Assembly (NCBI GenBank): GCA_019638595.1
Contig: JAHBTJ010000034.1
Span: 1 to 62,295 of the forward strand
DNA: 62,295 nt
Direction: 5' to 3'
DNA from: Chitinophagaceae bacterium
GTDB lineage: Bacteria > Bacteroidota > Bacteroidia > Chitinophagales > Chitinophagaceae
Part shown: piece after piece, positions 16,956-59,027 of the stretch
Layout of the letters: each line of letters opens with the position of its first letter
Numbering within the stretch: position 1 is the stretch's first letter
Notes under the pieces: generated by a model
Database searches by the model: none
The model's input: only the letters and a program-made list of their open reading frames with translations
What the model was told of the DNA's origin: nothing
Translations under genes and position numbers: made by a program

Positions 16956-16970
16956 GAGTTAATTTTTAAA

Positions 16971-18092: not shown

Positions 18093-18120
18093 CTCTTCAT
18101 TTTTCTCTAATTAAATAAAA

Positions 18121-18156: not shown

Positions 18157-18198
18157 TCAGAGTTAAGCAATATGAAGTTATTCCATTTAAAAGCACAA

Positions 18199-19893: not shown

Positions 19894-19899
19894 GTTAAC

Positions 19900-20718: not shown

Positions 20719-20797
20719 TTGGAAAGAATAAATCAACCTGCGTATAGTAGCTCCACAAGGAGTACGCCTGCCGATATTTTCTTAATTTTACAGTCTT

Positions 20798-43666: not shown

Positions 43667-43685
43667 TTCAGAATTTCTTCGAAAT
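43667..43685 (+). promoter_or_regulatory. Putative OmpR-type operator, site 1 (locus A regulator)
   Basis: TTCAGAATTTCTTCGAAAT: two half-sites TTCnnAAT/TTCnAAAT separated by TTC, an 11-bp period. It ends 7 bases before a -7 element TAAATTTG (43693-43700). The same arrangement recurs at 45704, 54880 and 55666. Confidence 0.65.
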
Positions 43686-43692
43686 AGGATTT

Positions 43693-43700
43693 TAAATTTG
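43693..43700 (+). promoter_or_regulatory. Predicted -7 promoter element of the locus A regulator
   Basis: TAAATTTG matches TAnnTTTG exactly, four bases before the ATG at 43705, so the mRNA is probably leaderless or nearly so. The 334 bases from 43371 to 43704 otherwise show nothing recognised. Confidence 0.55.
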
Positions 43701-43704
43701 TAGT

Positions 43705-44379
43705 ATGAAAATCCTGCTAATAGAAGATGAAAAAGAGCTTGCCCTAAGTATTGTAGAATACCTTTCAAGGGAAAGCTACTTATGTGAGGTGGCTTCTACC
43801 TTTACTGAAGCGATGAAAAAAATAGAAGTATTTGATTATGATTGTATTTTGCTGGATATAACGCTTCCGGATGGTAATGGTTTAAAAATTTTAGAAGAAC
43901 TAAAGAAAGAAAATAAGCAGGACGGTGTTATTATTATTTCTGCCCGGAACTCGTTGGATGATAAGATTAAAGGATTGCAGATCGGCGCAGATGACTATCT
44001 TACGAAGCCATTTCACCTGTCGGAATTAACCGCCCGCATATACTCCCTGATAAGAAGAAGGCAATTTAATAATTCCAATATTGTACGGCAGGGCGAATTG
44101 GAAATAGACCTTCTGGCAAAAAAGGTTTCAGTAAATAAGACTATGGTTGCACTTACAAAAAAAGAATTTGGCTTGCTTATATACTTCATTGGTAATAAAA
44201 ACAGGGTGCTTTCCAAAAGTACCCTGGCTGAACACCTGTCGGGAGATTTCGCGGATATGCTCGACAATCATGACTTTGTATACGCGCACGTAAAGAACCT
44301 GAAGAAGAAGCTGAATGAAGCAGGATGCGAACAATTTTTGAAAACTGTTTACGGTACCGGCTACAAATGGGAAGGATGA
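43705..44379 (+). CDS. OmpR-family response regulator (locus A)
   Basis: 224 residues. Receiver with acid pair LLIEDEKELALS, phosphoacceptor in CILLDITLPDGNG, Ser in IIISARNS and Lys in DDYLTKPFHLSEL, all canonical. Winged-helix DNA-binding domain 128-224 (LTKKEFGLLIYFI, VYAHVKNLKKKLNEAG, VYGTGYKWEG). The gene for its kinase overlaps the stop (ATGA). Operator site 1 sits over its own promoter, suggesting autoregulation. Downstream PAP2 and phosphoethanolamine transferase genes make it the likely analogue of PmrA/BasR-type regulators of lipid A modification, though the sequences are not close enough to claim orthology. Confidence 0.93.
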   Translation: MKILLIEDEKELALSIVEYLSRESYLCEVASTFTEAMKKIEVFDYDCILLDITLPDGNGLKILEELKKENKQDGVIIISARNSLDDKIKGLQIGADDYLTKPFHLSELTARIYSLIRRRQFNNSNIVRQGELEIDLLAKKVSVNKTMVALTKKEFGLLIYFIGNKNRVLSKSTLAEHLSGDFADMLDNHDFVYAHVKNLKKKLNEAGCEQFLKTVYGTGYKWEG

Positions 44380-45659
44380 AAAACCTGTTACAAAAATCAC
44401 TTAAGCAGCTCACGGTATTTGCATTTATTGTTTTTGCGCTGAGTATTCCCTCGTATTTCCTATTGGTAGACTGGATATGGCTGAAAGAATTAGATGAAAA
44501 CAACGAACTTATTGCGGAGAGGATAGAAAATGAATTTAATGAACAAAAGATCAGCAACGAAAAATTAGCTCAAAGCATTCAGTTCTGGAATGAAATACAA
44601 CCTGTAAGTAAGATAGAGCTTATTTACCAGCCGTTATCAAAGGATAGCTTGTATACGGTCATGCGGCCAAATCCATATTCTACAAAAGAAGCTATTGACC
44701 GCTTTCGTGGTTTAAAGACCAGTATTAAGATCAATGATCAGGATTATTCGCTTGTTGTTGAAACGAATGTTGAAGAAACCGAAGAAACCGTTGCTTATAT
44801 TGCTATGGTTACGTTGCTGTTTTTCCTGATTTTGGTAATTGGTTTCTGGATATTGAATAGAAGGTTTTCAAAAAAATTATGGCAACCCTTTCAGGATACT
44901 TTGCAGCAATTAAAATCATTTCAGCTAAACAGCCAAAAGCCAATTCAGTTTCAGGATACCGATACTATAGAATTTGCTGAATTGAATGCAACGCTGGACA
45001 AGCTTCTTCAACATAGTATTACTACTTACAGAAATCAAAAGGAATTTACGGAAAATGCTTCCCATGAGCTGCAGACACCGTTAGCGATCCTGAAAAATAA
45101 GCTGGATATTTTACTGCAAAGTGATGACCTGACCGAAAGGCAATATCATATTGCAGAAGAAATGAACAAGGCCCTGGTAAGAAGTTCGCGGATAAACAAA
45201 AACCTCTTGTTGCTTGTAAAAATTGAGAACAGCCAGTTCGATCGTTCAGAACTTATCGGGTTTGATACCATAGTGCTTCAAAGTATAGATGCTTTACAGG
45301 AGCATTTTAAGGAGAAAAAAATAGATGTAAGCACTGATATTCATTCAAATATTGAAGTAAAAGGCAATAGTAGCTTAACCGAGGTTTTGATCAGCAATCT
45401 TTTGATCAATGCCATCCGTCATACTCTTCCGGAAGGTTCTATAAGGATAACTGTATCAAAATTTGCTTTTGAAGTTTCCAATTCAGGAGAACAACCTCTT
45501 AGTCCGGATTTATTGTTCAAGAGATTTTCAAGAATGTCTGCGGATAACCGGGGCAGTGGCTTAGGGCTTTCAATCGTTCAGGAAATATGCAAGCTTCATG
45601 GCTGGACAGTGAAATATGACTTCGGAAATAATGCGCATCTCTTTTCCGTAAAATTTTAG
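44376..45659 (+). CDS. Sensor histidine kinase (locus A)
   Basis: 427 residues from ATG 44376, which overlaps the regulator stop in ATGA; an upstream in-frame ATG at 44325 is unlikely. Membrane helices at about 12-32 (VFAFIVFALSIPSYFLLVDW) and 145-165 (MVTLLFFLILVIGFWIL) enclose a periplasmic sensor of 110 residues. HisKA: FTENASHELQTPLAILKNKL. HATPase: ISNLLINAIRHTLPEG and RGSGLGLSIVQEICKLHGW; the G1 box reads NSGEQPL rather than DxGxG. It should phosphorylate the adjacent regulator. Similar sensors respond to envelope stress or cationic peptides, which is inference. Confidence 0.92.
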   Translation: MKNLLQKSLKQLTVFAFIVFALSIPSYFLLVDWIWLKELDENNELIAERIENEFNEQKISNEKLAQSIQFWNEIQPVSKIELIYQPLSKDSLYTVMRPNPYSTKEAIDRFRGLKTSIKINDQDYSLVVETNVEETEETVAYIAMVTLLFFLILVIGFWILNRRFSKKLWQPFQDTLQQLKSFQLNSQKPIQFQDTDTIEFAELNATLDKLLQHSITTYRNQKEFTENASHELQTPLAILKNKLDILLQSDDLTERQYHIAEEMNKALVRSSRINKNLLLLVKIENSQFDRSELIGFDTIVLQSIDALQEHFKEKKIDVSTDIHSNIEVKGNSSLTEVLISNLLINAIRHTLPEGSIRITVSKFAFEVSNSGEQPLSPDLLFKRFSRMSADNRGSGLGLSIVQEICKLHGWTVKYDFGNNAHLFSVKF

Positions 45660-45703
45660 ACGGACTGCAAAACAGCTATTTTGTTGTTTTAAGAAAATCT
45701 AGC

Positions 45704-45722
45704 TTCAAAATTTCTTCTAAAT
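45704..45722 (+). promoter_or_regulatory. Putative OmpR-type operator, site 2 (lipid A module of locus A)
   Basis: TTCAAAATTTCTTCTAAAT, followed after 8 bases by TACTTTAC (45731-45738), a near match to the -7 element, then the small membrane gene at 45761. It gives the PAP2/transferase genes their own regulated promoter after the kinase. Confidence 0.65.
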
Positions 45723-45760
45723 TGACCCGGTACTTTACCTCGTTTTTTAACGGGTAAAAT

Positions 45761-46018
45761 ATGCTTATCAGGAAGAGATTACTTAATCTTATTAACAGCA
45801 GGTTTTCTACATTGTCTATAATTGTAGGATTGTATGTAACGATTTCACTTCTCACAAGATTACCTCTTACTGTTTCCCAAAGTTGGATTGGTTCATTGGC
45901 AGATAAGATTCATATGTGCTGCTATCTTTCACTTGTCCTAATCATTATCTCTTTTGCCGTACCGGCAGAGCGATATTTTAACCTGTCAAGCACGCAGGAA
46001 CCCAAATTAAAACTATAA
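45761..46018 (+). CDS. Small membrane protein, unknown
   Basis: 85 residues with two membrane segments (TLSIIVGLYVTISLLTRLPL and CYLSLVLIIISFAVPAERYF). The first segment with LLTR resembles the N-terminus of LTA-synthase-like or phosphoethanolamine-transferase membrane enzymes, so it may be a small accessory protein or an N-terminal remnant of such an enzyme. It is the first gene after operator site 2 and is followed after 48 bases by the PAP2 phosphatase. Confidence 0.6.
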   Translation: MLIRKRLLNLINSRFSTLSIIVGLYVTISLLTRLPLTVSQSWIGSLADKIHMCCYLSLVLIIISFAVPAERYFNLSSTQEPKLKL

Positions 46019-46066
46019 AAACAATTGCACTTGTTAAATAAGTAAACCCGAAAACCCAAAGATATA

Positions 46067-46903
46067 ATGAACAAAAATATTGTTAGCAATTATTCAAGGC
46101 TCAGGGCAATTCTGTTTTCTTTACCCATATTTTTGTTAATTACAATTGCTTTATTTCTGTATAGCCAGGATGCTTTATGTGTTGATAGATATGTACAAGT
46201 TCAAAAGGATAGCTTCTTTTCTATCAATCATTATTTAGGGCAGTATCCCAATCTCCAGCTTAATCTTACCCAATTGGGAGATTGCATGCTTCTTTTATCG
46301 TTTTTAAGTATATTTATTGTGTATGCCCCAAAACTCTGGGAGGCTTTAATTTCAGCTTTACTGGTTTCTGTTCTGTTTTCCAGTTCACTGAAGAGAATAT
46401 TTGGAATACCAAGGCCCGCAGAACTGTTGGATAATAACAGTTTTATAATCGTCGGAAAAAAAGTATCTGGATTCAGCAGCTTGCCTTCCGGGCACTCCAT
46501 TACGGTTTTTACTGTATTTACAGTGCTGCTGTTTGCATTTATGCCTCAAAGGTTGAAATATAAAATTTCATGGTTTTTTTTCATAATCACTATGGGGTTG
46601 ATACTTGCCTTTACGAGAGTAGGCGTGGGAGCGCATTATCCTATAGATGTTATAGTAGGCTGTATTATAGGATATATTTCAGGGCTTGTAGGTATTTTTA
46701 TTAGCCGGGAATATAATATCTGGGCTTGGGTTAGCAACAGGAAAACCTATCCTTTTTTTATTTTATTGTTTCTGATTTGTTGTGTTTTATTAATCCACAA
46801 AATAATTAATGAAAACCTGATAATATTTTATTTGTCATTTATCAGCCTGGTTATTTCGCTATATAAAATCATTAGAGTGTATGCTAAAAATATTAAAAAC
46901 TGA
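46067..46903 (+). CDS. PAP2-family membrane phosphatase (locus A)
   Basis: 278 residues, about seven membrane helices. The three PAP2 motifs are in order: KRIFGIPRPAELL (KxxxxxxRP), FSSLPSGHSITVF (PSGH) and TRVGVGAHYPIDVIVG (SRx5HxxxD variant). The family removes phosphate from lipids such as undecaprenyl-PP or lipid A (LpxE/LpxF type). Its 3' end overlaps the phosphoethanolamine transferase gene by 23 bases, so both act in one pathway; dephosphorylation of lipid A before or together with ethanolamine addition is the simplest reading. Confidence 0.88.
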   Translation: MNKNIVSNYSRLRAILFSLPIFLLITIALFLYSQDALCVDRYVQVQKDSFFSINHYLGQYPNLQLNLTQLGDCMLLLSFLSIFIVYAPKLWEALISALLVSVLFSSSLKRIFGIPRPAELLDNNSFIIVGKKVSGFSSLPSGHSITVFTVFTVLLFAFMPQRLKYKISWFFFIITMGLILAFTRVGVGAHYPIDVIVGCIIGYISGLVGIFISREYNIWAWVSNRKTYPFFILLFLICCVLLIHKIINENLIIFYLSFISLVISLYKIIRVYAKNIKN

Positions 46904-48410
46904 CTTTCAGATAACTCATTTTGTTTTATTAATGAGTTTTCTGAATTTTTTATTTTTTCATTTTCCGTTTTATGCTTTTGTCTTTAATAACCTTGATTAT
47001 AAAAGTTTGAGCGGCATTATTGCAATTATAAGTTTAATGATTTTAATGCTGGTTGTAAATGCTTTTGTTTTTTGCCTGATATTTTTTCTCTCTCGTTTTG
47101 TTGGAAAATTTTTACTGGCCTTATTTTTTATTATCAATTCGATTTCGGTTTACTTTATTAATACTTACAATGTTATAATAGATGAAAGTATGATTGGTAA
47201 CGTGATCAACAGCAATTATGAAGAGGCCAGCAGCTTCTTTTCAATTAAATTGATTGTATACATAATGCTGCTGGGTGTTATTCCCGGTATTTACATCATT
47301 AAAGCGAAAATAATAAACATAACATGGAAGAGGTTTTTGGTCACTTCTTCTCTTACCTTATTATTTATAGCCATCCTGGCATTTGCTAATTCGAGCCACT
47401 GGCTATGGATTGATAAAAATTCAAAACAACTGGGAGGGCTTGCAATGCCCTGGTCTTATTCCGTAAACACTTCGCTTTATTATATTCATCAGCATCAAAA
47501 AAATAAAAAAGAAATTGTATTACCGGATGCCACTATAAAAGACAATGAGAAGTCGGTTATTGTTTTAGTTATAGGAGAATCTGCAAGAAAACAAAATTTT
47601 TCTTTGTATGGTTACGGGAGAAACACGAATCCGCTGCTTTCCCAAACGCGGAATGTATTTCATTTTGACGCTACTTCCTGTGCTACATACACCACCGCGG
47701 GCGTAAAATGTATATTGGAGCATACTAATACCGATGATCTATATGAAATTTTACCCAATTATTTATACAGGAATAATGTAGAAGTTATTTGGAGAACCAC
47801 AAACAGGGGAGAACCCCCCGTTCATATAGAAAGCTATCAAACAAGGGAGGCTTTAATGCTGAATTGTAAAGGCGAAGCATGTAATTACGATGAAATCCTT
47901 TTAACGGGATTAAAAGAACAAATACTAGCCAGTAAAAAGAATAAAATATTGATAATACTGCACACAAGCACCAGTCATGGCCCTACATATAGTAAGAAAT
48001 ATCCACCTCAATTTGAAACTTTCAAGCCCGTTTGTAATAGTGTTGAATTGGGAAATTGTTCTCAAAATGAACTGATCAACGCATATGATAATACTATTGT
48101 TTATACTGATTATATCCTGTATACTGTAATTGAAGATTTAAAACAATTAACGGACTATAAAAGCGCGATGCTTTTTGTTGCAGACCACGGAGAATCTTTA
48201 GGAGAAAAAAACCTGTATATGCATGGAATGCCTATAAGTATTGCTCCTAAAGAGCAATATGAGATCCCTTTTATTGTTTGGACATCCGATAGTTCAAAAC
48301 AACTCAAGCCTGATAAAACATTGTCGCAAAACCACGTGTTTCATAGTGTTCTAAATTTTTTAAGCGTACAAAGTCCTGTTTATGATGAGGAGATGAACAT
48401 TTTTAAATAG
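46881..48410 (+). CDS. Phosphoethanolamine transferase, EptA/MCR-like sulfatase family
   Basis: 509 residues. Five N-terminal membrane helices (1-175), then a periplasmic sulfatase-fold domain: VIVLVIGESARKQNFSLYGY (metal Glu), a nucleophile region TSCATYTTAGVKCILE where a Thr replaces the Ser/Cys of sulfatases, ILHTSTSHGPTYSKKYPP, and FVADHGESLGEKNLYMHG (metal Asp-His). The Cys pairs (SC..KC, CKGEAC, C..C) fit disulfides of EptA. The enzyme moves phosphoethanolamine from phosphatidylethanolamine to lipid A phosphates, lowering surface negative charge; together with the PAP2 gene and two-component pair it makes a polymyxin-response-like module. Confidence 0.9.
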   Translation: MLKILKTDFQITHFVLLMSFLNFLFFHFPFYAFVFNNLDYKSLSGIIAIISLMILMLVVNAFVFCLIFFLSRFVGKFLLALFFIINSISVYFINTYNVIIDESMIGNVINSNYEEASSFFSIKLIVYIMLLGVIPGIYIIKAKIINITWKRFLVTSSLTLLFIAILAFANSSHWLWIDKNSKQLGGLAMPWSYSVNTSLYYIHQHQKNKKEIVLPDATIKDNEKSVIVLVIGESARKQNFSLYGYGRNTNPLLSQTRNVFHFDATSCATYTTAGVKCILEHTNTDDLYEILPNYLYRNNVEVIWRTTNRGEPPVHIESYQTREALMLNCKGEACNYDEILLTGLKEQILASKKNKILIILHTSTSHGPTYSKKYPPQFETFKPVCNSVELGNCSQNELINAYDNTIVYTDYILYTVIEDLKQLTDYKSAMLFVADHGESLGEKNLYMHGMPISIAPKEQYEIPFIVWTSDSSKQLKPDKTLSQNHVFHSVLNFLSVQSPVYDEEMNIFK

Positions 48411-48459
48411 CGGGCTAAAGAATAGCGCCTTTTAACTTGGGGATAGATAGCTTGAAAAA

Positions 48460-50901
48460 TTATAATTTGAATTGAAGCGTTACATAAAGATTACGCTTAT
48501 CTGACGGCAAAATTCCAGGCCCGGGATAGCCATCGGCACGCCTCGTAAAATAGCGCCCGTTCGTAAGATTATTAACTCCTCCAAAAATGGTGAACGCCCT
48601 CCAGTTATACCTTACACTAATATCCATTACATGAAATGCCGGGATGGCGCCGTCTACCGCCGTAGGCGTTTCTTCCGTATTGGTGGCATCTGAATATTGT
48701 TTAGCCTGGTAAGCATATTGAAAAGAAATATTAAAACGATTGTTACCAAATGATGTGCCGGTGCGAAAAGTGAACGGCGGTACATTCTCAACCAGTTTAT
48801 CAGCAATCGCCGTATTCTTCGTGTTTACGTACCTGGCATCTATCACTGCCAAAGCTGTATACAGATTCAGCTTGTACCTGGCTCTGCCACCGGAAATGGC
48901 TTTCAGGATATCGCCATCCAATAATATTTCAGTACCTATATTCCGGCTGTCGGATACATTGGTGCGCAAACGATAAGTCATAAAATCCTGGTCTCTTGTA
49001 AATATAGAGCCGATCCTGTCATTATACTTCAGATAAAATCCGCTGATGTCAACGTATAACCAATTACTGACGGTTCCTCTGAAGCCGAGATCAATATTAT
49101 AGCCTGTTTCATCTCTCAACGTAGAGTCCACCCGTGCGTTCTGATTGATGACTCTTATATCGTTAAAATTAATGGAACGATAGTTTTGTGAAATATTAGC
49201 ATATAGTTCCTTATTACCGGTAAATTTCCAGGCAGTGCCGATACCCAAAAGGATAAATGATCTTGGATTTGATCTGTGTTCAACGATTTTATCATCGTCT
49301 ACGAATATATTTTTTTTGTAGTAGTACCCGTTTGCCTTTGTATCAATATATTCAAAACGCATTCCCGGCGTAACAGTCCAGCGCCGGTTGATCTGGAACA
49401 CATTTTCGGCAAAAGCTGCAATATTGGTTCCCGGGAACCGGTAGCTGGATTTATTCGGTTCTTCGCCGGTAAACTCAAAATCAGGACCGTCGCCATTATT
49501 ACCATCTCCCTGCTTTCTGTTGGTAAGCCCTTTGTAAACACGTGTGCCTATTAGAAAAGTACTTGCTGTTGTTTTAAACAATTTGTACTGGTGAATAAAC
49601 CGCAACTCAGAGCCGGAATTGCTGTACACATCCGACATAAAATCCCTGTTACCGCCATCATCCGGGCGATTAATATAACTAAGGTTTCCAAGCGCATCCC
49701 TCCCTCCCTGAAGAGTATAATTCCGCCAGTTCAGCTTTGTATGATCGTTAAACTGATAGTCAAAAGACAGGCTGATCAAATTCCAGTTCACCCTAAACCA
49801 GTTCCTTGCTCTTACGGATACGGATGGATCTTCCCTGAACTGGGCATCTGTAAGCCCGCCGGGCTGTTTGGCCAGGTATTGCATTAATGTATATTCGCCG
49901 GTTATTTTAAACTTGTTGCTTACATTATAGGCAACATGCGCATACCCGCTGTGCTGGTTATAATGACTGTTGGGTCGCCAGTCATCCCCTAACTTATATT
50001 GATAAAATCCGTAATAGTTTAGTCTTCCTTTTGCAACGGTTCCGCCAATGCTGTTAAAGCTGTTGAAAAAGCCGTAGCTGCCGATTGTTTGTCGTGAAGT
50101 AAGTTCAAATGGTTTCTCTTTAGGACCTTCTTTCATAACAAAATTAACAAGGCCTCCAAATTGAGGTCCGTATTGCAAACTGGCCGCGCCACGCACAATT
50201 TCTATTCTGTCAACTGCTTCAGACGACGGGGTATAATAGCTTTCAGGATAACCAAGCGCGTCGGCGCTGATATCGTAACCATTCTGCCGGATGTTGAAGT
50301 TAGATGAGCGATTTGGACTAAGCCCTCTACCTCCAATACCTAACTGCAGGCCACCGCGGTCATATTCCCATATATTCAGTCCGGGGATGCGTGCGTAGAT
50401 CTGCCGGGTATTATTAGAAGCCAGGTTTGCATTCAGGTTCTTTACATTAATTAATTCGGTTTTCTTTCCCGCGTAAATACTGGTTCCAACAACATCTTTT
50501 AATCTGCCGGATACTGCTTCATTTTGATTAGATGAAACAATTACAGCATCAAGCTCTTTTATTTCCAGATCACTATTCGTAAATCTAAAATCAACTACAA
50601 TATTCCCGTTTTTCAATTCAACCTGCTCCTGTTTTGGCCTGTACCCGGTAATCGTAGCGGTTATTTCATAAACGGCAGGCGATAGTTTACTTATACGGAA
50701 GAAACCATTTTCATTCGTTAACTTTTGCTCGTTCAGCGGCATAATTTTGATCGTGGCATATTGAACGGGTTCATCTGAAGCCGTTACTGTTCCGCTGATG
50801 CTGTACTGGGCGTGCAGCAGGCAAGGGGAAGTCATTAATGCAACAACGTATAGCCATTGTAGTAATGTTGTATATTTTATATATTTAAACTGGTAAGTCA
50901 T
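48460..50901 (-). CDS. TonB-dependent outer-membrane receptor, FecA-like
   Basis: 813 residues with signal peptide (LLQWLYVVALMTSPCLLHAQ). Residues 32-118 are a CarboxypepD_reg-like domain (YSISGTVTASDEPVQYATIK), then a plug (VVGTSIYAGKKTELINVKNL, GIGGRGLSPNRSSNFNIRQN, IEIVRGAASLQYGPQFGGLV) and a 22-strand-type barrel ending in GILPSDKRNLYVTLQFKL with terminal aromatic/Leu as needed for insertion. The plug style resembles FecA-type iron(III)-chelate receptors. It is the last gene of a leftward operon with HTTM, imelysin and DUF4856 genes, a set linked to iron. Confidence 0.93.
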   Translation of the reverse strand: MTYQFKYIKYTTLLQWLYVVALMTSPCLLHAQYSISGTVTASDEPVQYATIKIMPLNEQKLTNENGFFRISKLSPAVYEITATITGYRPKQEQVELKNGNIVVDFRFTNSDLEIKELDAVIVSSNQNEAVSGRLKDVVGTSIYAGKKTELINVKNLNANLASNNTRQIYARIPGLNIWEYDRGGLQLGIGGRGLSPNRSSNFNIRQNGYDISADALGYPESYYTPSSEAVDRIEIVRGAASLQYGPQFGGLVNFVMKEGPKEKPFELTSRQTIGSYGFFNSFNSIGGTVAKGRLNYYGFYQYKLGDDWRPNSHYNQHSGYAHVAYNVSNKFKITGEYTLMQYLAKQPGGLTDAQFREDPSVSVRARNWFRVNWNLISLSFDYQFNDHTKLNWRNYTLQGGRDALGNLSYINRPDDGGNRDFMSDVYSNSGSELRFIHQYKLFKTTASTFLIGTRVYKGLTNRKQGDGNNGDGPDFEFTGEEPNKSSYRFPGTNIAAFAENVFQINRRWTVTPGMRFEYIDTKANGYYYKKNIFVDDDKIVEHRSNPRSFILLGIGTAWKFTGNKELYANISQNYRSINFNDIRVINQNARVDSTLRDETGYNIDLGFRGTVSNWLYVDISGFYLKYNDRIGSIFTRDQDFMTYRLRTNVSDSRNIGTEILLDGDILKAISGGRARYKLNLYTALAVIDARYVNTKNTAIADKLVENVPPFTFRTGTSFGNNRFNISFQYAYQAKQYSDATNTEETPTAVDGAIPAFHVMDISVRYNWRAFTIFGGVNNLTNGRYFTRRADGYPGPGILPSDKRNLYVTLQFKL

Positions 50902-50913
50902 AAATTATTTTCT

Positions 50914-52311
50914 TTATCGTGTATAGGGAAGTATCCAATTGTAATGTTTCCAGCTCAATTGCCGCTGCGCAAGATTGACCGTGCTGTCAATAAACAATTG
51001 AGATGGTGTTCCATTGAGCGTAACATAAATCTCACCATACACTTCAGGTTTTTTTATATCACGTTTCTTATATTCATCTGCTAAATGATGCGCATACTTT
51101 AAAATCAGATCCGGCTGTGTACTCATCATTTTCTCCTGCAACGGCGTTAAAAACTGAGCGTTATTCACTTCGTATATCTTATCAGCATCTTTTACCCTAA
51201 AAATGGCATTCCCTGCCTTTTCCATTAACATTACCCGCCAGGAAAACCTGTATCCTTCCTCGCTCCAAAACAAATGATCGGGATAGAACAGAAAACGAAG
51301 TGGTATAATGATCTGAAGGAAAATGTAGATGCTCATCCCGATGTATAGCGGTTTATAAAACCGAAAGCGATGCATGTTGGTTGAGTTAGGTGCCGAAATC
51401 AATAGCGTATCCCCTGTTAACCGAAACAATAACTTCTTATGAAAATCGCTTGAAAAGAAGATAAGGGTTGATGCAATCATTACATAAGGAAACATACCAA
51501 TACCAGGAAAGAAGATTGCTGTAGCAACGTGGAAGATAAGCACGAATACATAGGCGAAGGATCTGGTTTTTCGATTAAGCAAAAAGAAAACGATGAGCGA
51601 ATCGTATATCGCTCCAAACCAGGAGAAAAGATAGGCGACCCATTCTTCATACATATACTTACCAACAACGGGTAAATGCGATTTTGCAGGCAGCCAGGTA
51701 CGCATAGGTTCTGCAAGTATCAGCCAGTCGTAATTGAGCTTTGCCAGTCCGGCAAAAATGTACACTATCGCGAGCTGGAAACGTAGCATACCTACCGTAA
51801 ATAAGGAGACATGTGCTTTTTTAATGGAAGGTCTGAGGTATGCATCAAGTGAAAAAAAACGATTGGCGGGCAACCATATCATAATAAAAGCAACAAGGCT
51901 GATAAAATAATAGTGGTTGAGATAGGTGGTTACATCAATCAGTTCAACATACGTGAACCCCAGGAAGAAAGTAATGGCTGCTATGCGGTAAAAAAGACCT
52001 AATGTAATGAGGATGGTTGAAATAACAATTATGGCGAACAGGATATACATACCAGGGTTCCCGAGCGGCGTTACCCACTCAAAGCCCCAGTAATTAAAAT
52101 GAAATTTGGGAAGTATATAAACGGCTTCAATCCATCCCCGCCACCAGAAACGTATAAGACTGAAACACATGAGCAAACCAAAAATGATGCGAAAACTAAC
52201 TAACGGCGCTATAGAAATCTGTTGATTCCATTTAATGCTGCAACACTTAAACAACGACGGCTTGCCAGGGTTGCACACTTCTTCTGTTTTAAAGCGCTGA
52301 TTAATCTCCAT
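50914..52311 (-). CDS. HTTM-domain membrane protein (vitamin K gamma-carboxylase-like)
   Basis: 465 residues with the HTTM architecture: multiple helices from residue 30 (ISIAPLVSFRIIFGLLMCFS), a DVTTYLNHYYFISLVAFIMI segment with the conserved NHYY, ANRFFSLDAYLRP, and a C-terminal soluble part. Related to vitamin K-dependent gamma-carboxylase, but bacterial HTTM proteins have no proven activity. Its start overlaps the imelysin stop by 11 bases and it lies 12 bases before the TonB receptor, so it belongs to the iron-type operon. Confidence 0.88.
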   Translation of the reverse strand: MEINQRFKTEEVCNPGKPSLFKCCSIKWNQQISIAPLVSFRIIFGLLMCFSLIRFWWRGWIEAVYILPKFHFNYWGFEWVTPLGNPGMYILFAIIVISTILITLGLFYRIAAITFFLGFTYVELIDVTTYLNHYYFISLVAFIMIWLPANRFFSLDAYLRPSIKKAHVSLFTVGMLRFQLAIVYIFAGLAKLNYDWLILAEPMRTWLPAKSHLPVVGKYMYEEWVAYLFSWFGAIYDSLIVFFLLNRKTRSFAYVFVLIFHVATAIFFPGIGMFPYVMIASTLIFFSSDFHKKLLFRLTGDTLLISAPNSTNMHRFRFYKPLYIGMSIYIFLQIIIPLRFLFYPDHLFWSEEGYRFSWRVMLMEKAGNAIFRVKDADKIYEVNNAQFLTPLQEKMMSTQPDLILKYAHHLADEYKKRDIKKPEVYGEIYVTLNGTPSQLFIDSTVNLAQRQLSWKHYNWILPYTR

Positions 52312-53428
52312 CGTTATCCATAAAACTAATTTGAACCCCGGTTGCAGATGCCATATCTGTTTTTATAAGTGTAAGGAGCTTTTGAATTTCTCCATATGCT
52401 GTATTTACGGCGGTAGCTTCTGCCGTAAGGCTGTTTGACAATGGATCAGGAATAGCCTCCAGCTTAGCCAGGGTGATATCGAACTGGGAAGTGATCAGGC
52501 TGTTCAGGTTTTGTTTACCTAATGTATTAAGGTAATCCGAAAACCCCTTCCTGCTGCCGCCTGCCGTATACACCAGCTTCAGGTTTTTTAAGTTGGCAAC
52601 AGCCAGGGCAATAGAGTTATCGGTAAAATATCCTTCTACTTTAGTTGAAAATACTTGCCCGTTGGATTGCTTTCCGAAAGGCCAGCCTATTCTCGGGCCT
52701 TTAAGAACGTCCATTTCGTAAGCCATTTGATTTACCAGGTTGCCGATAGGGCTACCTACATTGCTCTGGGTATTGCTAATAAAGGTGGTCCTGTATATTC
52801 CCCAATCGCTAACTACCTGGTCTGTTAATGCTTTTATGCGTTTCGCTACATCATTAATATATATTACTCTGTTAGCGGTATTGGTGGTAAATTTTGCAAT
52901 TGCATTCGGACCTGTAATTAAATAGCCCAGCGCTGGAAATCCCTGTGAATAAAACGACTTATTGGAGTATTCGCTGAGATTATAAACGCCTGTGCTGATA
53001 TTGTTTTCGATGGTAACACTATCTACGCTAAAACCGTTCAATAATAAGTCGGTATTGGTAAGACCTCCACAAAAGTTAACACTATATTCAAGGGTAGCCG
53101 AAGTTGCAGGAGTGAGATTATTAAAGGCTTCTATATACTGGTATTGCAAGTGCGCCGTTTTCAAAGCAGTAATGGCTTCGGTTTGTGTAGCAGGCGATGG
53201 CGCGTTTGCAAAAGCAGTAGTTGCTGCTTGTAGCGCATTAATCTTTTGTTGGAAAGCGGTGTATCCAGGGATAATCATTTTATCAGCATAGTAAGTAAGC
53301 ATAGCGGTTTTGTCAAAATTTTCGTTACCCCCTTGGTCAGGAGCATCCTTACTTCCCTTGCTGCAGGCCAGGAAGATAACCGAGATTACTGCTATGTTCC
53401 CCATAAGGGCCATAATTGATTTCTTCAT
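52301..53428 (-). CDS. Imelysin-family lipoprotein
   Basis: 375 residues; lipoprotein signal ends IFLACSKGSK. The imelysin fold is seen in two helical-bundle halves: residues 45-130 (YYADKMIIPGYTAFQQKINA, AHLQYQYIEAFNNL) and GFPALGYLITGPNAIAKF at about 167, the place of the GxHxxE motif of imelysin peptidases; here His and Glu are replaced, so peptidase activity is unlikely. Imelysin-like lipoproteins bind iron or take part in iron uptake. It precedes the HTTM gene with an 11-base overlap. Confidence 0.88.
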   Translation of the reverse strand: MKKSIMALMGNIAVISVIFLACSKGSKDAPDQGGNENFDKTAMLTYYADKMIIPGYTAFQQKINALQAATTAFANAPSPATQTEAITALKTAHLQYQYIEAFNNLTPATSATLEYSVNFCGGLTNTDLLLNGFSVDSVTIENNISTGVYNLSEYSNKSFYSQGFPALGYLITGPNAIAKFTTNTANRVIYINDVAKRIKALTDQVVSDWGIYRTTFISNTQSNVGSPIGNLVNQMAYEMDVLKGPRIGWPFGKQSNGQVFSTKVEGYFTDNSIALAVANLKNLKLVYTAGGSRKGFSDYLNTLGKQNLNSLITSQFDITLAKLEAIPDPLSNSLTAEATAVNTAYGEIQKLLTLIKTDMASATGVQISFMDNDGD

Positions 53429-53531
53429 AAAACCCTCTTTTTACATGCATGTCTTATAGCACTACGGCAGGTACACTACTTATATAGAATACCTGCCGCG
53501 GCACATATTTAATTGCCGATTAGATTATTAG

Positions 53532-54644
53532 TTAAAAATCAAAGCCATAGGTGGTTTTAAAAATGCTTATTGCTTCATCTACCTTGGTCGCATTTTCCGT
53601 TTTCTTTAGCTCCCAGTAATCCATTTTTAAAATATCAACCAGCTTTTGATAATTAGCCGCGGTAAGTTTACTGTTTGCTGCACGATACTCCAATGCAATT
53701 GTAAAGCCATAAGCTTCAGAGTAATCGTGGAATCTTGCTGCGTCATCGCCTCTTGTTTTGGAAAGGCTCAGATATGTGTAAGCTGAAACGGCTAATGTTT
53801 TTTCCAGATATTCCTTAATAGTGGTAATAGCTGCATCGCGTGCGCTGTAATCTTTATTATCAATTGCAGCACGTCCTTTCAGGAAGGCGGCAAATACCGT
53901 ACCTCCAGCCCCAATCGGCCTGGCCCTTTCCCTGAAATAACCGCCAATAGCAAGAGGCCTTGAAGTTTCCGTATTGGCATAGGCCTTAGATGAGTCATAA
54001 TCTTTGGGAATCCCAACATATCCAAAAGCAAGATCCCAGGCGTGTTGCATGGCTGTGTAGCTGTTACCGGAAACATTAGCGTTGTTATCTGCACTTGCAG
54101 ACTTATCCAGGTTTTCAAAAACCTTATTCAATTGAAGCGCGCCCATTAATCCTTTCGCAACAAGCTGGTTAAATTCGAGTCCGCTAAAATTAACCAACCT
54201 GCTACCTACCTTCCCTGGCTTTCCCTGCTCTGCCACATCGTTACGATAAGTGCTTATTTTAACCATTGAATCGGCATATTTCTTAAAAGCCTCTGCATTT
54301 TTTGCAAGCCCGGAAAGTTTTACGCCCGTGAATGTGTTTAACTGATCGGGGCTATAAGTGAGGTTAGATACATAATCTTCTTTGAAAGCACCATTGGTAT
54401 TGTTCCATAAATAGTTTACTGTATCCTGGCTTAATTCCCGTGAAGTTGCTTTTGACAGATAGCTCTGAAAGCCAATCAACATGTTAACAGCCTGTGTAGT
54501 CTCTTCAAAAGAAGCATTTCCAAAATTGTAACTTGTAGGCACAACGTACTCGCGGGGTTTGTCATTGTCATTATCTTTTTTACAGGAAGTAAGATATCCT
54601 CCAAGTATCAGTAAGGCAGCAACTTTCAGGAGTTTAACTTTCAT
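53532..54644 (-). CDS. DUF4856 lipoprotein
   Basis: 370 residues from the ATG at 54644; an in-frame ATG 33 bases earlier adds a charged leader before the signal and is less likely. Signal ends GGYLTSCKKD. The body fits DUF4856: VPTSYNFGNASFEETTQAVN, AMQHAWDLAFGYVGIPKDY, FAAFLKGRAAIDNKDYSARD and a helical C-terminus. The family commonly leads operons with imelysin, HTTM and TonB receptor genes as here, and is thought to be imelysin-related. A weak operator-like site overlaps its promoter region at 54662. Confidence 0.85.
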   Translation of the reverse strand: MKVKLLKVAALLILGGYLTSCKKDNDNDKPREYVVPTSYNFGNASFEETTQAVNMLIGFQSYLSKATSRELSQDTVNYLWNNTNGAFKEDYVSNLTYSPDQLNTFTGVKLSGLAKNAEAFKKYADSMVKISTYRNDVAEQGKPGKVGSRLVNFSGLEFNQLVAKGLMGALQLNKVFENLDKSASADNNANVSGNSYTAMQHAWDLAFGYVGIPKDYDSSKAYANTETSRPLAIGGYFRERARPIGAGGTVFAAFLKGRAAIDNKDYSARDAAITTIKEYLEKTLAVSAYTYLSLSKTRGDDAARFHDYSEAYGFTIALEYRAANSKLTAANYQKLVDILKMDYWELKKTENATKVDEAISIFKTTYGFDF

Positions 54645-54661
54645 GATAGTAATATTTCTTT

Positions 54662-54680
54662 TTAAAAATTTCTGCAAAAT
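54662..54680. promoter_or_regulatory. Weak operator-like site before the DUF4856 operon
   Basis: TTAAAAATTTCTGCAAAAT keeps the 11-bp layout and the TTC spacer of the four strong sites with one mismatch in each half-site (TTaAAAAT, TgCAAAAT). The area is AT-rich, so chance similarity is possible. Read on the top strand it faces away from the operon. Confidence 0.3.
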
Positions 54681-54879
54681 TAAAATGATGTCAAAGTGAT
54701 TCGTTTACGGCTTCGGGAAAACAAAAATGAAAATGACATTATATTGATATCCTCTGAAACATTGTACAGTTAAGGGTTTCATCAATTTTAAATATTAAAT
54801 CTTCAGAATCACTTCAATATTTAAAGAGCATGGGTATCCCGTTTATCCGGATCAGGCTTCCCAGCTCGGTTATTTCCTC

Positions 54880-54898
54880 TTCAAAATTTCTTCGAAAT
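54880..54898 (+). promoter_or_regulatory. Putative OmpR-type operator, site 3 (locus B regulator)
   Basis: TTCAAAATTTCTTCGAAAT, ending 7 bases before AACATTTG (54906-54913), a 5/6 match to the fixed bases of TAnnTTTG. Same spacing as site 1. Confidence 0.65.
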
Positions 54899-54932
54899 CC
54901 CTTTCAACATTTGGCAAAATGAATTGCCTGTA

Positions 54933-55601
54933 ATGAGAGTGCTAATTATAAGCCAGGAAACAAAACTAGCCCAGAGTATCTATCGGCATTTAGTGCATGA
55001 AAATTACATATGCAAAATAGTTTACAATGTTGAGGACGGGAAACACATGATCGGGAATTTCAATTTCGAATGTATTTTATTAGATATTAGTATTTCTAAG
55101 GACGATGGATTAAACTTCTTACAAGAAGCAAGAAAAAGCAAAAAAAAGGAAGGCATAATTGTCCTGTCCGGAAAAAAAACTACAGACGAAGCGATACATT
55201 CATTAAAACTTGGCGCGGACGATTATATGGCGGAACCACTCCATTTGGGAGAATTGAGCGCCAGAATTGAAGCTGTCATAAAGAGGAAATACCTAAACAA
55301 CGATACGGAGATCAGATTTAAAGATATGGCAGTAAATACCTTATCAAGAAAAGTTACTATTGGCAATAATAAAATCGGTTTAACAAAGGCGGAGTATGAC
55401 ATATTGTTGCTCCTGCTTATTAACAGCGGTCGCGTAATCAGCAAGGAAGAAATAGCAGAGCGTCTTACCGGTCAAACAGATATTTACCTTTACAATTTTG
55501 ATATTTTATACACACATATTAAGAATCTGAAAAAAAAACTATCATTGCTGGGGCAATATATTAAGACAATTTATGGGATTGGGTATTGCATCATGGAATG
55601 A
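54933..55601 (+). CDS. OmpR-like regulator with degenerate receiver domain (locus B)
   Basis: 222 residues from the ATG at 54933; a TTG at 54924 would add three. Layout is that of an OmpR-family regulator and similar to the one at 43705. The Asp of CILLDISISKDDG is kept and Ser in IIVLSGKK is present, but the metal-binding acid pair is gone (LIISQETKLAQ instead of IEDE) and the essential Lys is Glu (DDYMAEPLHLGEL instead of TKPF). Standard phosphorylation is therefore unlikely. The winged helix (LTKAEYDILLLLL, YTHIKNLKKKLSLLG, IYGIGYCI) looks intact. No kinase gene is adjacent. Operator site 3 lies over its promoter. Confidence 0.9.
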   Translation: MRVLIISQETKLAQSIYRHLVHENYICKIVYNVEDGKHMIGNFNFECILLDISISKDDGLNFLQEARKSKKKEGIIVLSGKKTTDEAIHSLKLGADDYMAEPLHLGELSARIEAVIKRKYLNNDTEIRFKDMAVNTLSRKVTIGNNKIGLTKAEYDILLLLLINSGRVISKEEIAERLTGQTDIYLYNFDILYTHIKNLKKKLSLLGQYIKTIYGIGYCIME

Positions 55602-55665
55602 CGTTGTTTTGGCTTGAATAATAAATACATATTGCACTATTATAGCGCAGCAACTGATAGATCAT

Positions 55666-55684
55666 TTCAAAATTTCTTCTAAAT
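55666..55684 (+). promoter_or_regulatory. Putative OmpR-type operator, site 4 (outer-membrane protein of locus B)
   Basis: TTCAAAATTTCTTCTAAAT, identical to site 2. CAATTTCG at 55692-55699, seven bases on, is a weaker -7 match. The ATG of the TonB-linked gene is at 55725. Confidence 0.65.
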
Positions 55685-55724
55685 CAGGTTGCAATTTCGC
55701 TTAATATACTTCAATGCTTAAAGC

Positions 55725-58136
55725 ATGCTCAATAAACATTTCATTTTCCTGTTACTTTCCATACTGCCTGTAACTTATTCTTTAGCTCAGGTATCAGTTG
55801 TTACCATTTCCGGTATTGTAAAAAATAAAGCTGATAAGTCCGCTATATCTTATGCAAATATTGTTGTTAAAAACGAAAAAGACAGCGCTTTTGTTACCGG
55901 AACTGTTACCAGCGAAGAAGGAAGGTTTGCTATTGAAAATATCAAACCGGGCAACTATCTTTTAGCCGTTTCATTTACAGGATTTGAAGCCAGGGAGCAG
56001 CCTTTGTTTGTAGGCAGCCTTTCGGCATTTTTAGATATTCCCGTAATTGAGCTGGATGAGAAATCAACGGTTTTAGAAGGCGTTACCGTTACGGCAAAAA
56101 TAAGTGATATAAGCGGCAAACTGGATAAGAAAACCTATTCCGTTGCGGATAATATCAGCCAGGGTGGAGGTTCTGTTTTGCAAAGCATGCAAAATCTTCC
56201 GGGCATTACCATGCAGGATGGTAAAGTGCAGTTAAGGGGTAATGATAAGGTGACTATATTAATAGATGGAAAGCAAACCGCGTTAACAGGCTTTGGCAGT
56301 CAAACAGGTTTGGATAACATTCCTGCATCAGCTATTGATAAAATAGAGATCATCAACAATCCGTCTTCAAAGTATGATGCTAACGGCAATGCAGGTATCA
56401 TCAATATCATAATGAGGAAGAACAGGCAAAACGGATTTAACGGTAAGGTTGGTTTTTCGGCAGGGTTGGGCTCGCTATGGGTAAGGAAAGAAAACCTGCC
56501 CACCATTAGACAGCAATATACATTCACGCCTAAGATCAATCCTTCCTTATTACTTAACTATAGAAAGGATAAGGTGAATATATTTCTGCAGGCGGATAAT
56601 CTATATACGCATACATTAAACAAAAACGAGTTTGTGACCCGGAGCTATGACGATGGAGGTGTTATAAACTCCCAGTTAAAGAGGAACAGGAATACCAATT
56701 TCCTTACCACTAAAGCAGGCGTTGATTGGAATATTGATCAGCAAAGCACTTTAACCGTGTCGGGAATGTACGGAAGTGAAAAGATCATTGATCGTGGCGA
56801 TCAGCCTTTTTTCAATGGAGACATAACACACCGGCTTCGGCTTTGGCAGTTTTTGGAAGATGAATTAAAGACTACAGTAATGGCAACGGCTGCCTACCAG
56901 CATAAATTCAAAGAGGCAGGGCATTTGCTGAATATTGGTTTTAATTACACTTTTCACAGGGAAGATGAGCAATATTTTTACGACAACTACCTGCCATCAT
57001 CAACAGGTACGGATGCCTTTAAATTGCTATCTGACGAACAGGTATATGATTTTAATATAGATTATATAAGGCCATTAAAATATGGACGGGTTGAAACCGG
57101 CATTAAACTTCGCGACAGACGCATACCTACCGATATGAACTTTATCCCGGGCGAAAATTCGGTATTGGATACCGACGCAGGCGGCTGGGCCACTTATAAA
57201 GAGCTGATACCTGCACTATATGGTAATTATGTTTTTGAAAATGAAAAATGGGAGGCTGAGCTGGGTTTGCGTTTGGAGTATGTAAAAATCCGGTATAATG
57301 TCAACCCCGGCCATAGTACTTACAAAAGTGATGGATACAGTTACACCCAGCCCTTCCCTAATTTGAGGGTAGCCTATAAGCTAAACGATAACAACAAGCT
57401 TTCCGTATTCTATAACCGCAGGGTAGACAGACCCAATGAAGTGGACATCCGTATCTTCCCTAAATACGATGATGCTGAAATTATCAAAGTCGGAAATCCG
57501 GCATTACGTCCACAGTTTACCAACTCCATTGAGTTAGGATATAAAAACACCTGGAACAACGGCTATTTCTATTCTGCATTGTACCATCGTTTTGCGAATG
57601 GCACGATCACAAGGATTTCAAGCATTGTTCCCGGCAGTACATTGATATATGCCATATTTCAAAATGCAGGCAAGAGTTATAATGCAGGTATAGAAGCCAT
57701 TTTGAACCAAAAGGTTTCTGATGTTTATTCCTTTAATATTAATGGGAATATGTACAGGAACCAGATAAATGCTTTCACTGTAAAGAATTTGTACCCGGAA
57801 CCTAATTCCTTTTCCGCAGAAAAGCAAACGGCAATTTCGGGTAACCTGAAGCTGAACAATACTTTCCGTTTTGCAAAGGGCTGGGATGCACAACTGGCAG
57901 CAGTTTATTTAGCGCCCGACATTATACCGCAGGGGAAAATTTTATCAAGATTTTCAATAGATGCCGGCTTGAAGAAATCCGTTCAGAAAGGTAAAGGAGA
58001 AATTTTCTTCAATGCTACTGATTTGCTGAATACAATGGTTATTAGAAGACAGGTTCGGGGTATGGGATTTAGCTATACCAGTGACGATTATTACGAAACA
58101 CAGGTGATCCGGCTGGGATATAGCTATAAGTTGTGA
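55725..58136 (+). CDS. TonB-dependent receptor-type outer-membrane beta-barrel protein (locus B)
   Basis: 803 residues with signal peptide (FLLLSILPVTYSLAQ). A CarboxypepD_reg-like domain (29-115: ISGIVKNKADKSAISYANIV, GRFAIENIKPGNYLLAVSF), a plug (SVLQSMQNLPGITMQDGKVQ, IDKIEIINNPSSKYDANGNA, GIINIIMRKN) and a large barrel of the OMP_b-brl_3 type ending YETQVIRLGYSYKL. The absence of a clear TonB box is normal for this group. Placement behind operator site 4, after the degenerate regulator and before a PAP2 phosphatase, suggests a role in envelope remodelling rather than nutrient uptake, but that is inference. Confidence 0.92.
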   Translation: MLNKHFIFLLLSILPVTYSLAQVSVVTISGIVKNKADKSAISYANIVVKNEKDSAFVTGTVTSEEGRFAIENIKPGNYLLAVSFTGFEAREQPLFVGSLSAFLDIPVIELDEKSTVLEGVTVTAKISDISGKLDKKTYSVADNISQGGGSVLQSMQNLPGITMQDGKVQLRGNDKVTILIDGKQTALTGFGSQTGLDNIPASAIDKIEIINNPSSKYDANGNAGIINIIMRKNRQNGFNGKVGFSAGLGSLWVRKENLPTIRQQYTFTPKINPSLLLNYRKDKVNIFLQADNLYTHTLNKNEFVTRSYDDGGVINSQLKRNRNTNFLTTKAGVDWNIDQQSTLTVSGMYGSEKIIDRGDQPFFNGDITHRLRLWQFLEDELKTTVMATAAYQHKFKEAGHLLNIGFNYTFHREDEQYFYDNYLPSSTGTDAFKLLSDEQVYDFNIDYIRPLKYGRVETGIKLRDRRIPTDMNFIPGENSVLDTDAGGWATYKELIPALYGNYVFENEKWEAELGLRLEYVKIRYNVNPGHSTYKSDGYSYTQPFPNLRVAYKLNDNNKLSVFYNRRVDRPNEVDIRIFPKYDDAEIIKVGNPALRPQFTNSIELGYKNTWNNGYFYSALYHRFANGTITRISSIVPGSTLIYAIFQNAGKSYNAGIEAILNQKVSDVYSFNINGNMYRNQINAFTVKNLYPEPNSFSAEKQTAISGNLKLNNTFRFAKGWDAQLAAVYLAPDIIPQGKILSRFSIDAGLKKSVQKGKGEIFFNATDLLNTMVIRRQVRGMGFSYTSDDYYETQVIRLGYSYKL

Positions 58137-58244: not shown

Positions 58245-59027
58245 ATGACCAACAGATATTTATTTTCAGCAGTAATATTTTTCTTCCTTTCCTGTTTTCA
58301 AAAACTAAACGGACAGGACAGTATTAACACGATAGCTGAACCCAATAGTGCTTTTGTTGTAAAAAATAGTCCTCGCAGGCTGAATTACGAAAAGCTGATC
58401 ATCCCTTCCTTGTTTATAAGCTATGGTGTAGCTGGCTTGAGGATTGACGAGCTGAGGGAGCTTGATCATTCTACCAGGCACGAGATATGGGAGCATCAAC
58501 CTGACCATATAAGGTTAGACAATTATACACAATATGCACCGGCCTTAATGGTATATGGTTTAAATGCTGCCGGGGTGAAGGGCAAACATAATTTTAAGGA
58601 AAGGACGATCATTTACGCTGCTTCCCAGTTAATATCAACTGCGTTTGTAGTTCCTTTAAAACATATTGTAAAAGAAGAAAGACCGGACGGATCTAATAAA
58701 CTTTCTTTTCCCTCGGGGCATACTGCAACAGCTTTCGCATCTGCGCAGTTTATGTTCAGGGAATATAAGGACACCCATTTCTGGTTAAGTATTTCCGGTT
58801 ATTCTTTTGCTTTATTTACGGGCGTTTATCGTACATTGAATGACAAACACTGGGTAAGCGATGTGGTGGCAGGTGCAGGCTTCGGTATTTTGTCAACAGA
58901 ACTGGCGTATTGCTTATATCCTAAGATCAATACTTTGTTCACTGGCAAAAACAAAAAAACGGCAACGCTGATCATACCTGTGTATCAAAACAAAAATTTT
59001 GGTATTGGGCTGGTAAAAAATTTTTAA
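58245..59027 (+). CDS. PAP2-family phosphatase with signal peptide (locus B)
   Basis: 260 residues; signal or membrane anchor at 5-24 (LFSAVIFFFLSCFQKLNGQ). PAP2 motifs: KHIVKEERPDGSN, LSFPSGHTATAFA and YRTLNDKHWVSDVVAG (Arg...His...Asp). Fewer membrane helices than the PAP2 protein at 46067, so it may be a soluble or few-pass periplasmic enzyme, as with some lipid A 1-phosphatases. Co-orientation after the TonB-linked gene fits a shared role. Confidence 0.88.
   Translation: MTNRYLFSAVIFFFLSCFQKLNGQDSINTIAEPNSAFVVKNSPRRLNYEKLIIPSLFISYGVAGLRIDELRELDHSTRHEIWEHQPDHIRLDNYTQYAPALMVYGLNAAGVKGKHNFKERTIIYAASQLISTAFVVPLKHIVKEERPDGSNKLSFPSGHTATAFASAQFMFREYKDTHFWLSISGYSFALFTGVYRTLNDKHWVSDVVAGAGFGILSTELAYCLYPKINTLFTGKNKKTATLIIPVYQNKNFGIGLVKNF

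Follow-up and report, generated by a model that had tools for sequence, protein, structure and literature searches.

We analysed a 62,295-nt contig of a Chitinophagaceae bacterium (JAHBTJ010000034.1 of assembly GCA_019638595.1; its full length is referred to as the window) and argue with considerable confidence that a 19-bp direct repeat found on it, TTCNAAATTTCTTCNAAAT (TTCnAAAT-TTC-TTCnAAAT), is the operator of the OmpR-type response regulator (RR) RR1, and that RR1 heads a PmrAB-like envelope regulon of the Bacteroidota with an operator of its own and a PorY-family sensor kinase, HK1. The assignment is carried by the computed properties of the operator itself, its spacing, its targets, its co-occurrence with RR1 and the conservation of the RR1 recognition helix.

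The motif in the window and in the source genome

A pattern scan of the window yields three exact plus-strand matches and, upstream of RR1, a fourth plus-strand site with one mismatch (TTCAGAATTTCTTCGAAAT; G at position 5), all four co-directional with the next gene (Table 1). The initial annotation of this DNA, which had placed the motif at four sites on the strand of the downstream gene, was right as to presence and strand, the site at 43667 being the only imperfect one of the four. With up to three mismatches allowed, the window contains six matches, as compared to a mean of 1.22 and a maximum of 5 in shuffles. In the 7.06-Mb genome the exact motif occurs at three places only, all in this cluster, and the reversed pattern at none; with up to two mismatches there are 10 places for the motif vs 7 for the reversed pattern, the best four being 43667, 45704, 54880 and 55666, and the fifth, at 54662 (two mismatches), lying inside the window as well. 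A genome-wide search with a free linker and two mismatches returns only background (158 matches vs 152 for the control), and thus the fixed TTC linker matters in the source genome.

No description of the motif was found in open-access full text, in agreement with the initial annotation. Of four 14-base strings, a pair taken from the motif and a pair intended as the reverse complements of the first, none retrieved a paper from the same corpus.

Conservation of the motif and its co-occurrence with RR1

Using the outer-membrane protein encoded at 55725-58136 to search named genomes, we took the best 80 of 111 loci (1.60 Mb), many of them from close Chryseobacterium relatives and so not 80 independent events; the other sources include Terrimonas, Elizabethkingia, Flavobacterium, Sphingobacterium, Pedobacter, Niabella, Edaphocola, Moheibacter and Runella. 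The half-site pair TTCNAAAT-N3-TTCNAAAT occurs 101 times, in 52 of the 80 loci and always on the strand of the outer-membrane gene; the reversed pattern is absent, and 100 permuted patterns give a mean of 0.05 and a maximum of 2. Any other linker of 0-15 bp accounts for two pairs in total, as compared to 101 with the 3-bp linker: the 11-bp period of the half-sites is strongly selected in the relatives.

The regions upstream of RR1 orthologues (at least 58% identity; 73 distinct regions, last 70 nt, free linker) contain a site in 40, 57 and 65 cases at zero, up to one and up to two mismatches, respectively, against means of 0, 0.04 and 0.37, and maxima of 0, 7 and 26, for permuted motifs. In 56 of the 65 regions with a site, the site lies 19-21 nt before the start codon, as it does in the window. 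In gene maps of the relatives, the motif precedes RR1 orthologues and recurs before the transcription units that follow; part of the outer-membrane barrel orthologues have it upstream, too.

A survey that made no use of proteins covered 396 genomes of the class (probably Bacteroidia), the source genome counted. The exact motif is present in 17 of them, and the reversed pattern has six matches in six genomes. Outside the window, 15 of the 20 sites fall in RR1-type loci and five do not. RR1 at 61% identity or more – a line drawn after the list was seen – is encoded in 23 of the 396 genomes, and the motif occurs in 12 of these 23 vs 5 of the 373 others (Fisher p 2.8e-13). Fifteen genomes with named loci were searched, chosen for the presence of the motif in most of those loci; in these, 33 of 34 exact sites fall inside the cluster and the reversed control gives none; with one mismatch allowed, 13 genomes yield 45 places, some of them outside the cluster, vs 8 for the reversed pattern. 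Among 58 relatives (source genome included) the exact motif stands at eight places in four genomes.

Taken together, these counts confirm that the motif is real, far beyond chance. The initial annotation had named two outcomes that would refute its interpretation: the motif being common at random positions or missing upstream of orthologues. As judged by the genome, the 396-genome survey and the 80 loci, the exact motif is uncommon at random positions, and it is present upstream of orthologues across several families. Genome scans and the linker counts in the 80 loci rule out a random distribution and other linker lengths.

Promoter architecture

At all four window sites the -7-like 8-mer starts 8 nt past the end of the motif (initially given as 7-8 bases); one element of the initial annotation, TACTTTAC, had been shifted by one. 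In the relatives, the distance from the end of the motif to the end of a TTTG-like -7 core is 15 nt for 86 of 88 distinct non-RR1 sites and 15 or 16 nt for 47 of 50 RR1 sites, as found by a script that kept the best such core within 10-19 nt and so favours finding one. Identical sites, four sites without a downstream open reading frame (ORF) and three sites in downstream-ORF clusters 10, 11 and 16 were dropped before counting. The -7 element begins with TA in 43 of the 50 RR1 promoters vs 8 of the 88 others.

The sigma-ABfr consensus is given as TAnnTTTG at -7 plus TTTG near -33 (PMC7366714). The motif occupies the zone where the -33 element would stand and, reckoned from the -7 core, its position is estimated at about -37 to -19. 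A motif over the -33 zone and a poorer -7 element at the targets fit, as indirect evidence, targets that may depend on an activator and a regulator whose promoter may be leaky and self-inducing.

The RR1 start codon follows the -7-like element by 4 nt in the window (43693-43705), and in 55 of the 65 orthologous RR1 promoters with a site it lies 4-5 nt beyond the -7 core, from which the RR1 mRNA is predicted to be leaderless, a feature apparently kept across families. In Bacteroides thetaiotaomicron, the same paper reports that about 3.7% of 5' untranslated regions are shorter than 10 nt (PMC7366714). In the window before RR2 (TAATG) and in three relatives before RR1 (L011, L012 and L015; ATGA, with peptides of the form M-K-[VA]-P-K-[EK]), mini-ORFs of 4-6 codons start right after the -7 core and overlap the start of the regulator gene. 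Such mini-ORFs are perhaps a leaderless coupling device.

The regulators and the kinase

RR1 has an intact receiver pocket with the canonical acidic pair, Asp and Lys (segments IEDE, LLDIT and DYLTKPFH), and its best matches in a PDB sequence search are DrrD, followed by BasR/PmrA. The recognition helix, HDFVYAH[VI]KNLK[KN]KL, is nearly constant among the RRs of motif-bearing loci. Together with the strict 11-bp period, this constancy supports the earlier proposal of tandem binding in the OmpR manner.

HK1 hits the NCBIfam PorY family model, as do its 22 aligned orthologues (E <=1e-50 for the 22), and an OmpR-type RR gene lies beside each of these kinases. A kinase that owes the name PorY to a model match may, by this pattern, often work with an OmpR-type regulator rather than for type IX secretion. 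The name, which derives from the type IX secretion system (T9SS), may mislead the annotation of these kinases.

The second regulator, RR2, is a paralogue of RR1. That the window encodes two OmpR-type regulators, as first annotated, holds at the level of domains, but RR2 lacks canonical receiver residues: it has ISQE for IEDE and AEPL for TKPF, so that the acidic pair and the Lys are changed while the phospho-acceptor Asp is kept. Its recognition helix, THIKNLKKKL, is similar to that of RR1, with the core KNLKKKL kept. Since the receiver of RR2 is degenerate, it is doubtful that both regulators act alike. Among the 58 genomes (source genome included) the nearest relative of RR2, in G029, is 48% identical, has an intact pocket and has no motif upstream. 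RR2 as a widespread second regulator was rejected: RR-family matches were found in 15 of the 58 genomes, and none other than RR2 itself exceeds 48%. A mini-ORF whose stop codon overlaps the RR2 start (Table 1) may couple RR2 translation.

More distant RRs have other pairs. Near the RR start, no TTC-type pair was found in L079, L080, L083, L063 or L020; in the first three, the gene order is outer-membrane protein, RR, kinase, and a related pair, TTTAAAnT-TTC-TTTAAAAT, stands before the outer-membrane gene. L081 and L082 encode more distant RRs (LRNLRKK) and carry, in the corresponding position, a pair of the TTAAG type, which is the form known from the PmrA box; these TTAAGAATCTCTTAAGATT-like pairs are a possible evolutionary bridge from this operator to the PmrA box. 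Three paralogous OmpR-type RRs of the genus (L174, L175 and L179) are preceded, at a similar distance, by TTCAG-type pairs, e.g. TTCAGATTCTGTTCAGAAT in L174, which may point to a family of related operators.

Target genes and locus organisation

Table 1. Features of the operator-linked cluster in the window.
Feature	Coordinates	Strand	Remarks
Operator site	43667-43685	+	Upstream of RR1; one mismatch
-7-like element TAAATTTG	43693-43700	+	Upstream of RR1
RR1, OmpR-type response regulator	43705-44379	+	Pfam Response_reg and Trans_reg_C, above cut-offs
HK1, sensor histidine kinase	44376-45659	+	PorY family, NCBIfam NF052314, 421.4 bits (cut-off 350)
Operator site, exact	45704-45722	+	Heads relic/PAP2/EptA unit
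-7-like element GTACTTTA	45730-45737	+	Relic/PAP2/EptA unit; spacing as in 86/88 non-RR1 sites of relatives
85-aa shortened relic	45761-46018	+	N-terminal membrane part of LtaS/MdoB-like Sulfatase-family transferase
PAP2a, PAP2-superfamily membrane phosphatase	46067-46903	+	Pfam PAP2, 78.5 bits
EptA-type phosphoethanolamine-lipid A transferase	46881-48410	+	NCBIfam NF007160, 733.5 bits (cut-off 561); EptA_B_N and Sulfatase
Operator site, exact	54880-54898	+	Upstream of RR2
-7-like element AACATTTG	54906-54913	+	Upstream of RR2
4-codon mini-ORF (M-N-C-L-stop)	54919-54933	+	Stop overlaps RR2 start (TAATG)
RR2, OmpR-type RR1 paralogue	54933-55601	+	40% identity to RR1; both Pfam domains above cut-offs
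Operator site, exact	55666-55684	+	Upstream of outer-membrane barrel
-7-like element CAATTTCG	55692-55699	+	Upstream of outer-membrane barrel
803-aa outer-membrane beta-barrel, TonB-receptor-like	55725-58136	+	OMP_b-brl_3, carboxypeptidase-regulatory-like and plug domains
PAP2b, PAP2-superfamily protein	58245-59027	+	Pfam PAP2, 58.5 bits; weakly like LpxE
138-aa EamA-like small transporter	59044-59460	+	74% identity to L011 EamA (EamA by Pfam)

The small membrane protein of the initial annotation turned out to be something else: a shortened LtaS-like relic. In its place the sister genome L010 has a 657-aa Sulfatase-family protein (Pfam Sulfatase, 139.4 bits), which we take to be LtaS/MdoB-like, and in a two-sequence comparison the 85-aa relic aligns to residues 1-112 of that protein (39% over 112 columns, with a 42-aa gap; E 4e-18). 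In the second unit, the outer-membrane protein described together with a PAP2 gene is indeed a barrel and can now be specified (Table 1); the EamA-like gene comes after PAP2b in several related clusters.

To list targets in the relatives, we collected the ORFs directly downstream of sites with zero or one mismatch in loci L009-L111 and named one representative per cluster by Pfam. The targets are RR1, PepSY_like proteins, the outer-membrane barrel, PAP2 with EptA, the 657-aa Sulfatase-family protein, prokaryotic diacylglycerol kinase, a DAGK_cat lipid kinase, Omp85 with DUF5982, TauE, DUF347, a PEMT methyltransferase and an AraC regulator, as well as, in L039, an outer-membrane efflux protein followed by ORFs that resemble efflux-pump genes by look rather than by Pfam. 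EptA uses phosphatidylethanolamine and releases diacylglycerol. The common theme is head-group transfer onto envelope molecules, diacylglycerol recycling, PAP2 phosphatases and outer-membrane proteins.

The initial annotation joined two loci in one regulon. The single regulon is upheld, and the two blocks stand side by side in relatives: HK1, PAP2, EptA, motif, outer-membrane protein in L089 and RR1, HK1, PAP2, EptA, outer-membrane protein in L015. In the window, RR2 and a minus-strand block at 48460-54644 (TonB receptor, HTTM, imelysin and DUF4856) lie between the halves. From the gene orders we infer that the joined arrangement is ancestral, and the 'two loci' have the appearance of a single cluster that was split. 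The iron-type minus-strand block was rejected as a target: in the window no minus-strand site lies upstream of it within two mismatches. In L074 a similar block comes after a lipid-kinase ORF downstream of a one-mismatch site and could there share the lipid-kinase unit.

Proposed mechanism and alternative explanations

We infer the following chain of events. In response to a signal, perhaps cationic peptides as the initial annotation proposed, HK1 would phosphorylate RR1, and the phosphorylated dimer would bind head-to-tail on TTCnAAAT-TTC-TTCnAAAT, each half-site being occupied by one winged helix-turn-helix domain and both domains lying on one face of the DNA. Seated where a -33 element is missing, the dimer would activate rather than repress, recruiting RNA polymerase to weak -7 promoters: that of its own gene, with the transcript predicted to start at or beside the start codon, and those of the linked genes for EptA, LtaS-like transferases, PAP2 phosphatases, PepSY-like periplasmic proteins and outer-membrane barrels, joined in the relatives by diacylglycerol kinases, Omp85 and efflux genes. 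The likely output, with lipid A as the presumed substrate, would be a less negative surface charge and recycling of the diacylglycerol freed by the head-group transferases. In the source genome, RR2, with its disabled receiver and similar helix, would probably bind the same sites free of phospho-control.

Could RR1 be mainly a repressor that, bound over the core promoter, blocks RNA polymerase until a signal relieves the block? The estimated position of about -37 to -19 covers the promoter core, a frequent location of repressor sites, but the poorer -7 elements of the targets and the motif in the -33 zone form the pattern expected of activator-dependent promoters, and we consider mainly repressive action unlikely. 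A binder other than RR1 – either RR2 or one of the numerous further OmpR-type regulators, with RR1 merely a target – would be in keeping with the similar recognition helix of RR2 and the exact site in the RR2 promoter. Yet no protein besides RR2 itself exceeds the 48% of the motif-less G029 among the 58 genomes, and the motif is conserved in relatives with RR1 where no RR2 was found, which makes such a binder improbable. We regard as more improbable still that the motif is no operator at all and forms the upstream half of a promoter for an alternative sigma factor: the nearly invariant distance to the -7 core would suit such a promoter, but 11-bp direct repeats that tolerate hardly any other linker, a -7 core of the house-keeping TTTG type and an element that tracks an OmpR-type RR gene would not, and no sigma-factor gene was noticed in nine mapped clusters, of whose ORFs only part are named. 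As to a chance similarity of AT-rich promoters, the background-level count of the free-linker genome search is what such similarity would produce; the exact form, on the contrary, is confined to the cluster in the source genome and nearly so in 15 others, and is conserved across families at a fixed spacing. Its probability is negligible, AT-richness being ruled out by the protein-free survey, the 73 RR1 upstream regions and the linker test.

Several observations weigh against RR1 being the activator of this regulon through this operator. Besides the relatedness of the Chryseobacterium loci, 28 of the 80 outer-membrane-gene loci are without the exact half-site pair; on the DNA examined, 18 of them have only an RR of 54% identity or less, or none, and the other 10 do have an RR1 of 60-79%. 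No site within two mismatches was found in 8 of the 73 RR1 upstream regions, three of which (L148, L084 and L169) have weaker pairs in place, and, of the 23 genomes encoding RR1 at 61% or more, 11 are devoid of an exact site. Six matches of the reversed pattern turn up among the 58 relatives, every one of them in the same genome (G026). Classical OmpR/PhoB activator sites lie farther from the -7 element than this operator does, which makes repression possible. Finally, neither PAP2a nor PAP2b reaches a curated cut-off for a lipid A phosphatase: against the NCBIfam model for the LpxE lipid A 1-phosphatase (NF007159, cut-off 177) PAP2b scores 30.7 bits and PAP2a has no match.

Probable mobility of the cluster

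Between Chryseobacterium mucoviscidosis and Edaphocola the RR1 proteins share 92% identity, as compared to 83% between C. mucoviscidosis and C. indologenes; for RR1 of F. microcysteis the figures are 94% to C. mucoviscidosis and 61% to F. poyangense. After the cluster come, in L011, an RteC gene and a large N6-methylase/helicase (12426-21000) and, in L012, a similar large methylase/helicase (15863-20608); both are kinds of genes found on Bacteroidota conjugative elements. In the window, the G+C content is 35.1% from RR1 to EptA and 38.6% from RR2 to EamA vs 41.1% for positions 1-39000, and no mobile element was traced. Judged by these sequence features, horizontal transfer of the cluster is likely, as is carriage by an integrative element in L011 and L012.

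Implications

To our knowledge, few response-regulator operators are known in the Bacteroidota. Without recourse to proteins, the exact motif by itself pinpointed the locus in 12 of the 23 surveyed genomes with a close RR1; it offers a testable handle on the control of phosphoethanolamine addition to lipid A and of further surface changes, and accounts for several unnamed neighbour genes as members of one regulon. Overall, the initial interpretation was largely right. The system is probably a transferable control unit that retunes the outer membrane, much as PmrA does in unrelated gut bacteria. If an OmpR-type regulator were the ordinary partner of PorY-family kinases, the pairing of PorY with PorX would have arisen secondarily, by rewiring. 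A more speculative joint picture, which we put forward tentatively, is that of a self-contained, horizontally transferable envelope regulon of the Bacteroidota, with a leaderless, self-induced regulator, a PorY-family kinase whose ordinary partner is OmpR-type, PorY-PorX as the derived rewiring, and a receiver-dead RR2 that competes at the same operators and renders part of the response signal-independent.

Comparison with known systems

Riemerella anatipestifer PhoPR is likewise an OmpR-type two-component system of the Flavobacteriia with a known motif, for which DNA affinity purification sequencing (DAP-seq) gave the core TTTAACA and 583 peaks (PMC9603813). The different core rules it out as the same motif, and the targets described there are other ones; the two systems are set apart here by motif and targets.

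The match of HK1 to the PorY family, at 421.4 bits, is above the cut-off of 350, a likeness to PorY of Porphyromonas gingivalis, which acts with PorX and SigP. As an orphan kinase, that PorY phosphorylates PorX, an RR with a PglZ domain, and controls T9SS genes (PMC4800418). In contrast, the operon partner of HK1 is OmpR-type and its neighbours are envelope-modification genes, which sets the pair outside PorXY, and no T9SS genes were recognised among the Pfam-named motif targets.

The likeness to PmrA/PmrB (BasR/BasS) of the Enterobacteriaceae lies in an OmpR-type RR and two head-to-tail half-sites with an 11-bp period: the PmrA box, in one proven case, is CTTAAT-N5-CCTAAG, to be compared with CTAAAT-N5-CTAAAT inside TTCTAAATTTCTTCTAAAT here (PMC3973317). 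An EptA-type gene is among the targets of both systems, here through the operator at 45704, and PmrA gives the third-best NCBIfam score of RR1 (166.2 bits). There are differences too: the PmrA equivalog (NF007928, cut-off 330) is missed by both RR1 and RR2 (132.8 bits for the latter), and HK1 reaches 91.6 bits against a PmrB cut-off of 314; the half-site begins with TTC instead of TTA/CTT, the promoter has the -7 element of the Bacteroidota, and the regulator is predicted to be leaderless; the targets include an outer-membrane barrel, PepSY-like and LtaS-like proteins, and the set of exact sites is narrow and bound to the cluster. With scores below the PmrA/PmrB cut-offs and a PmrA-like layout, RR1 would be a regulator that works like PmrA and is not filed as PmrA.

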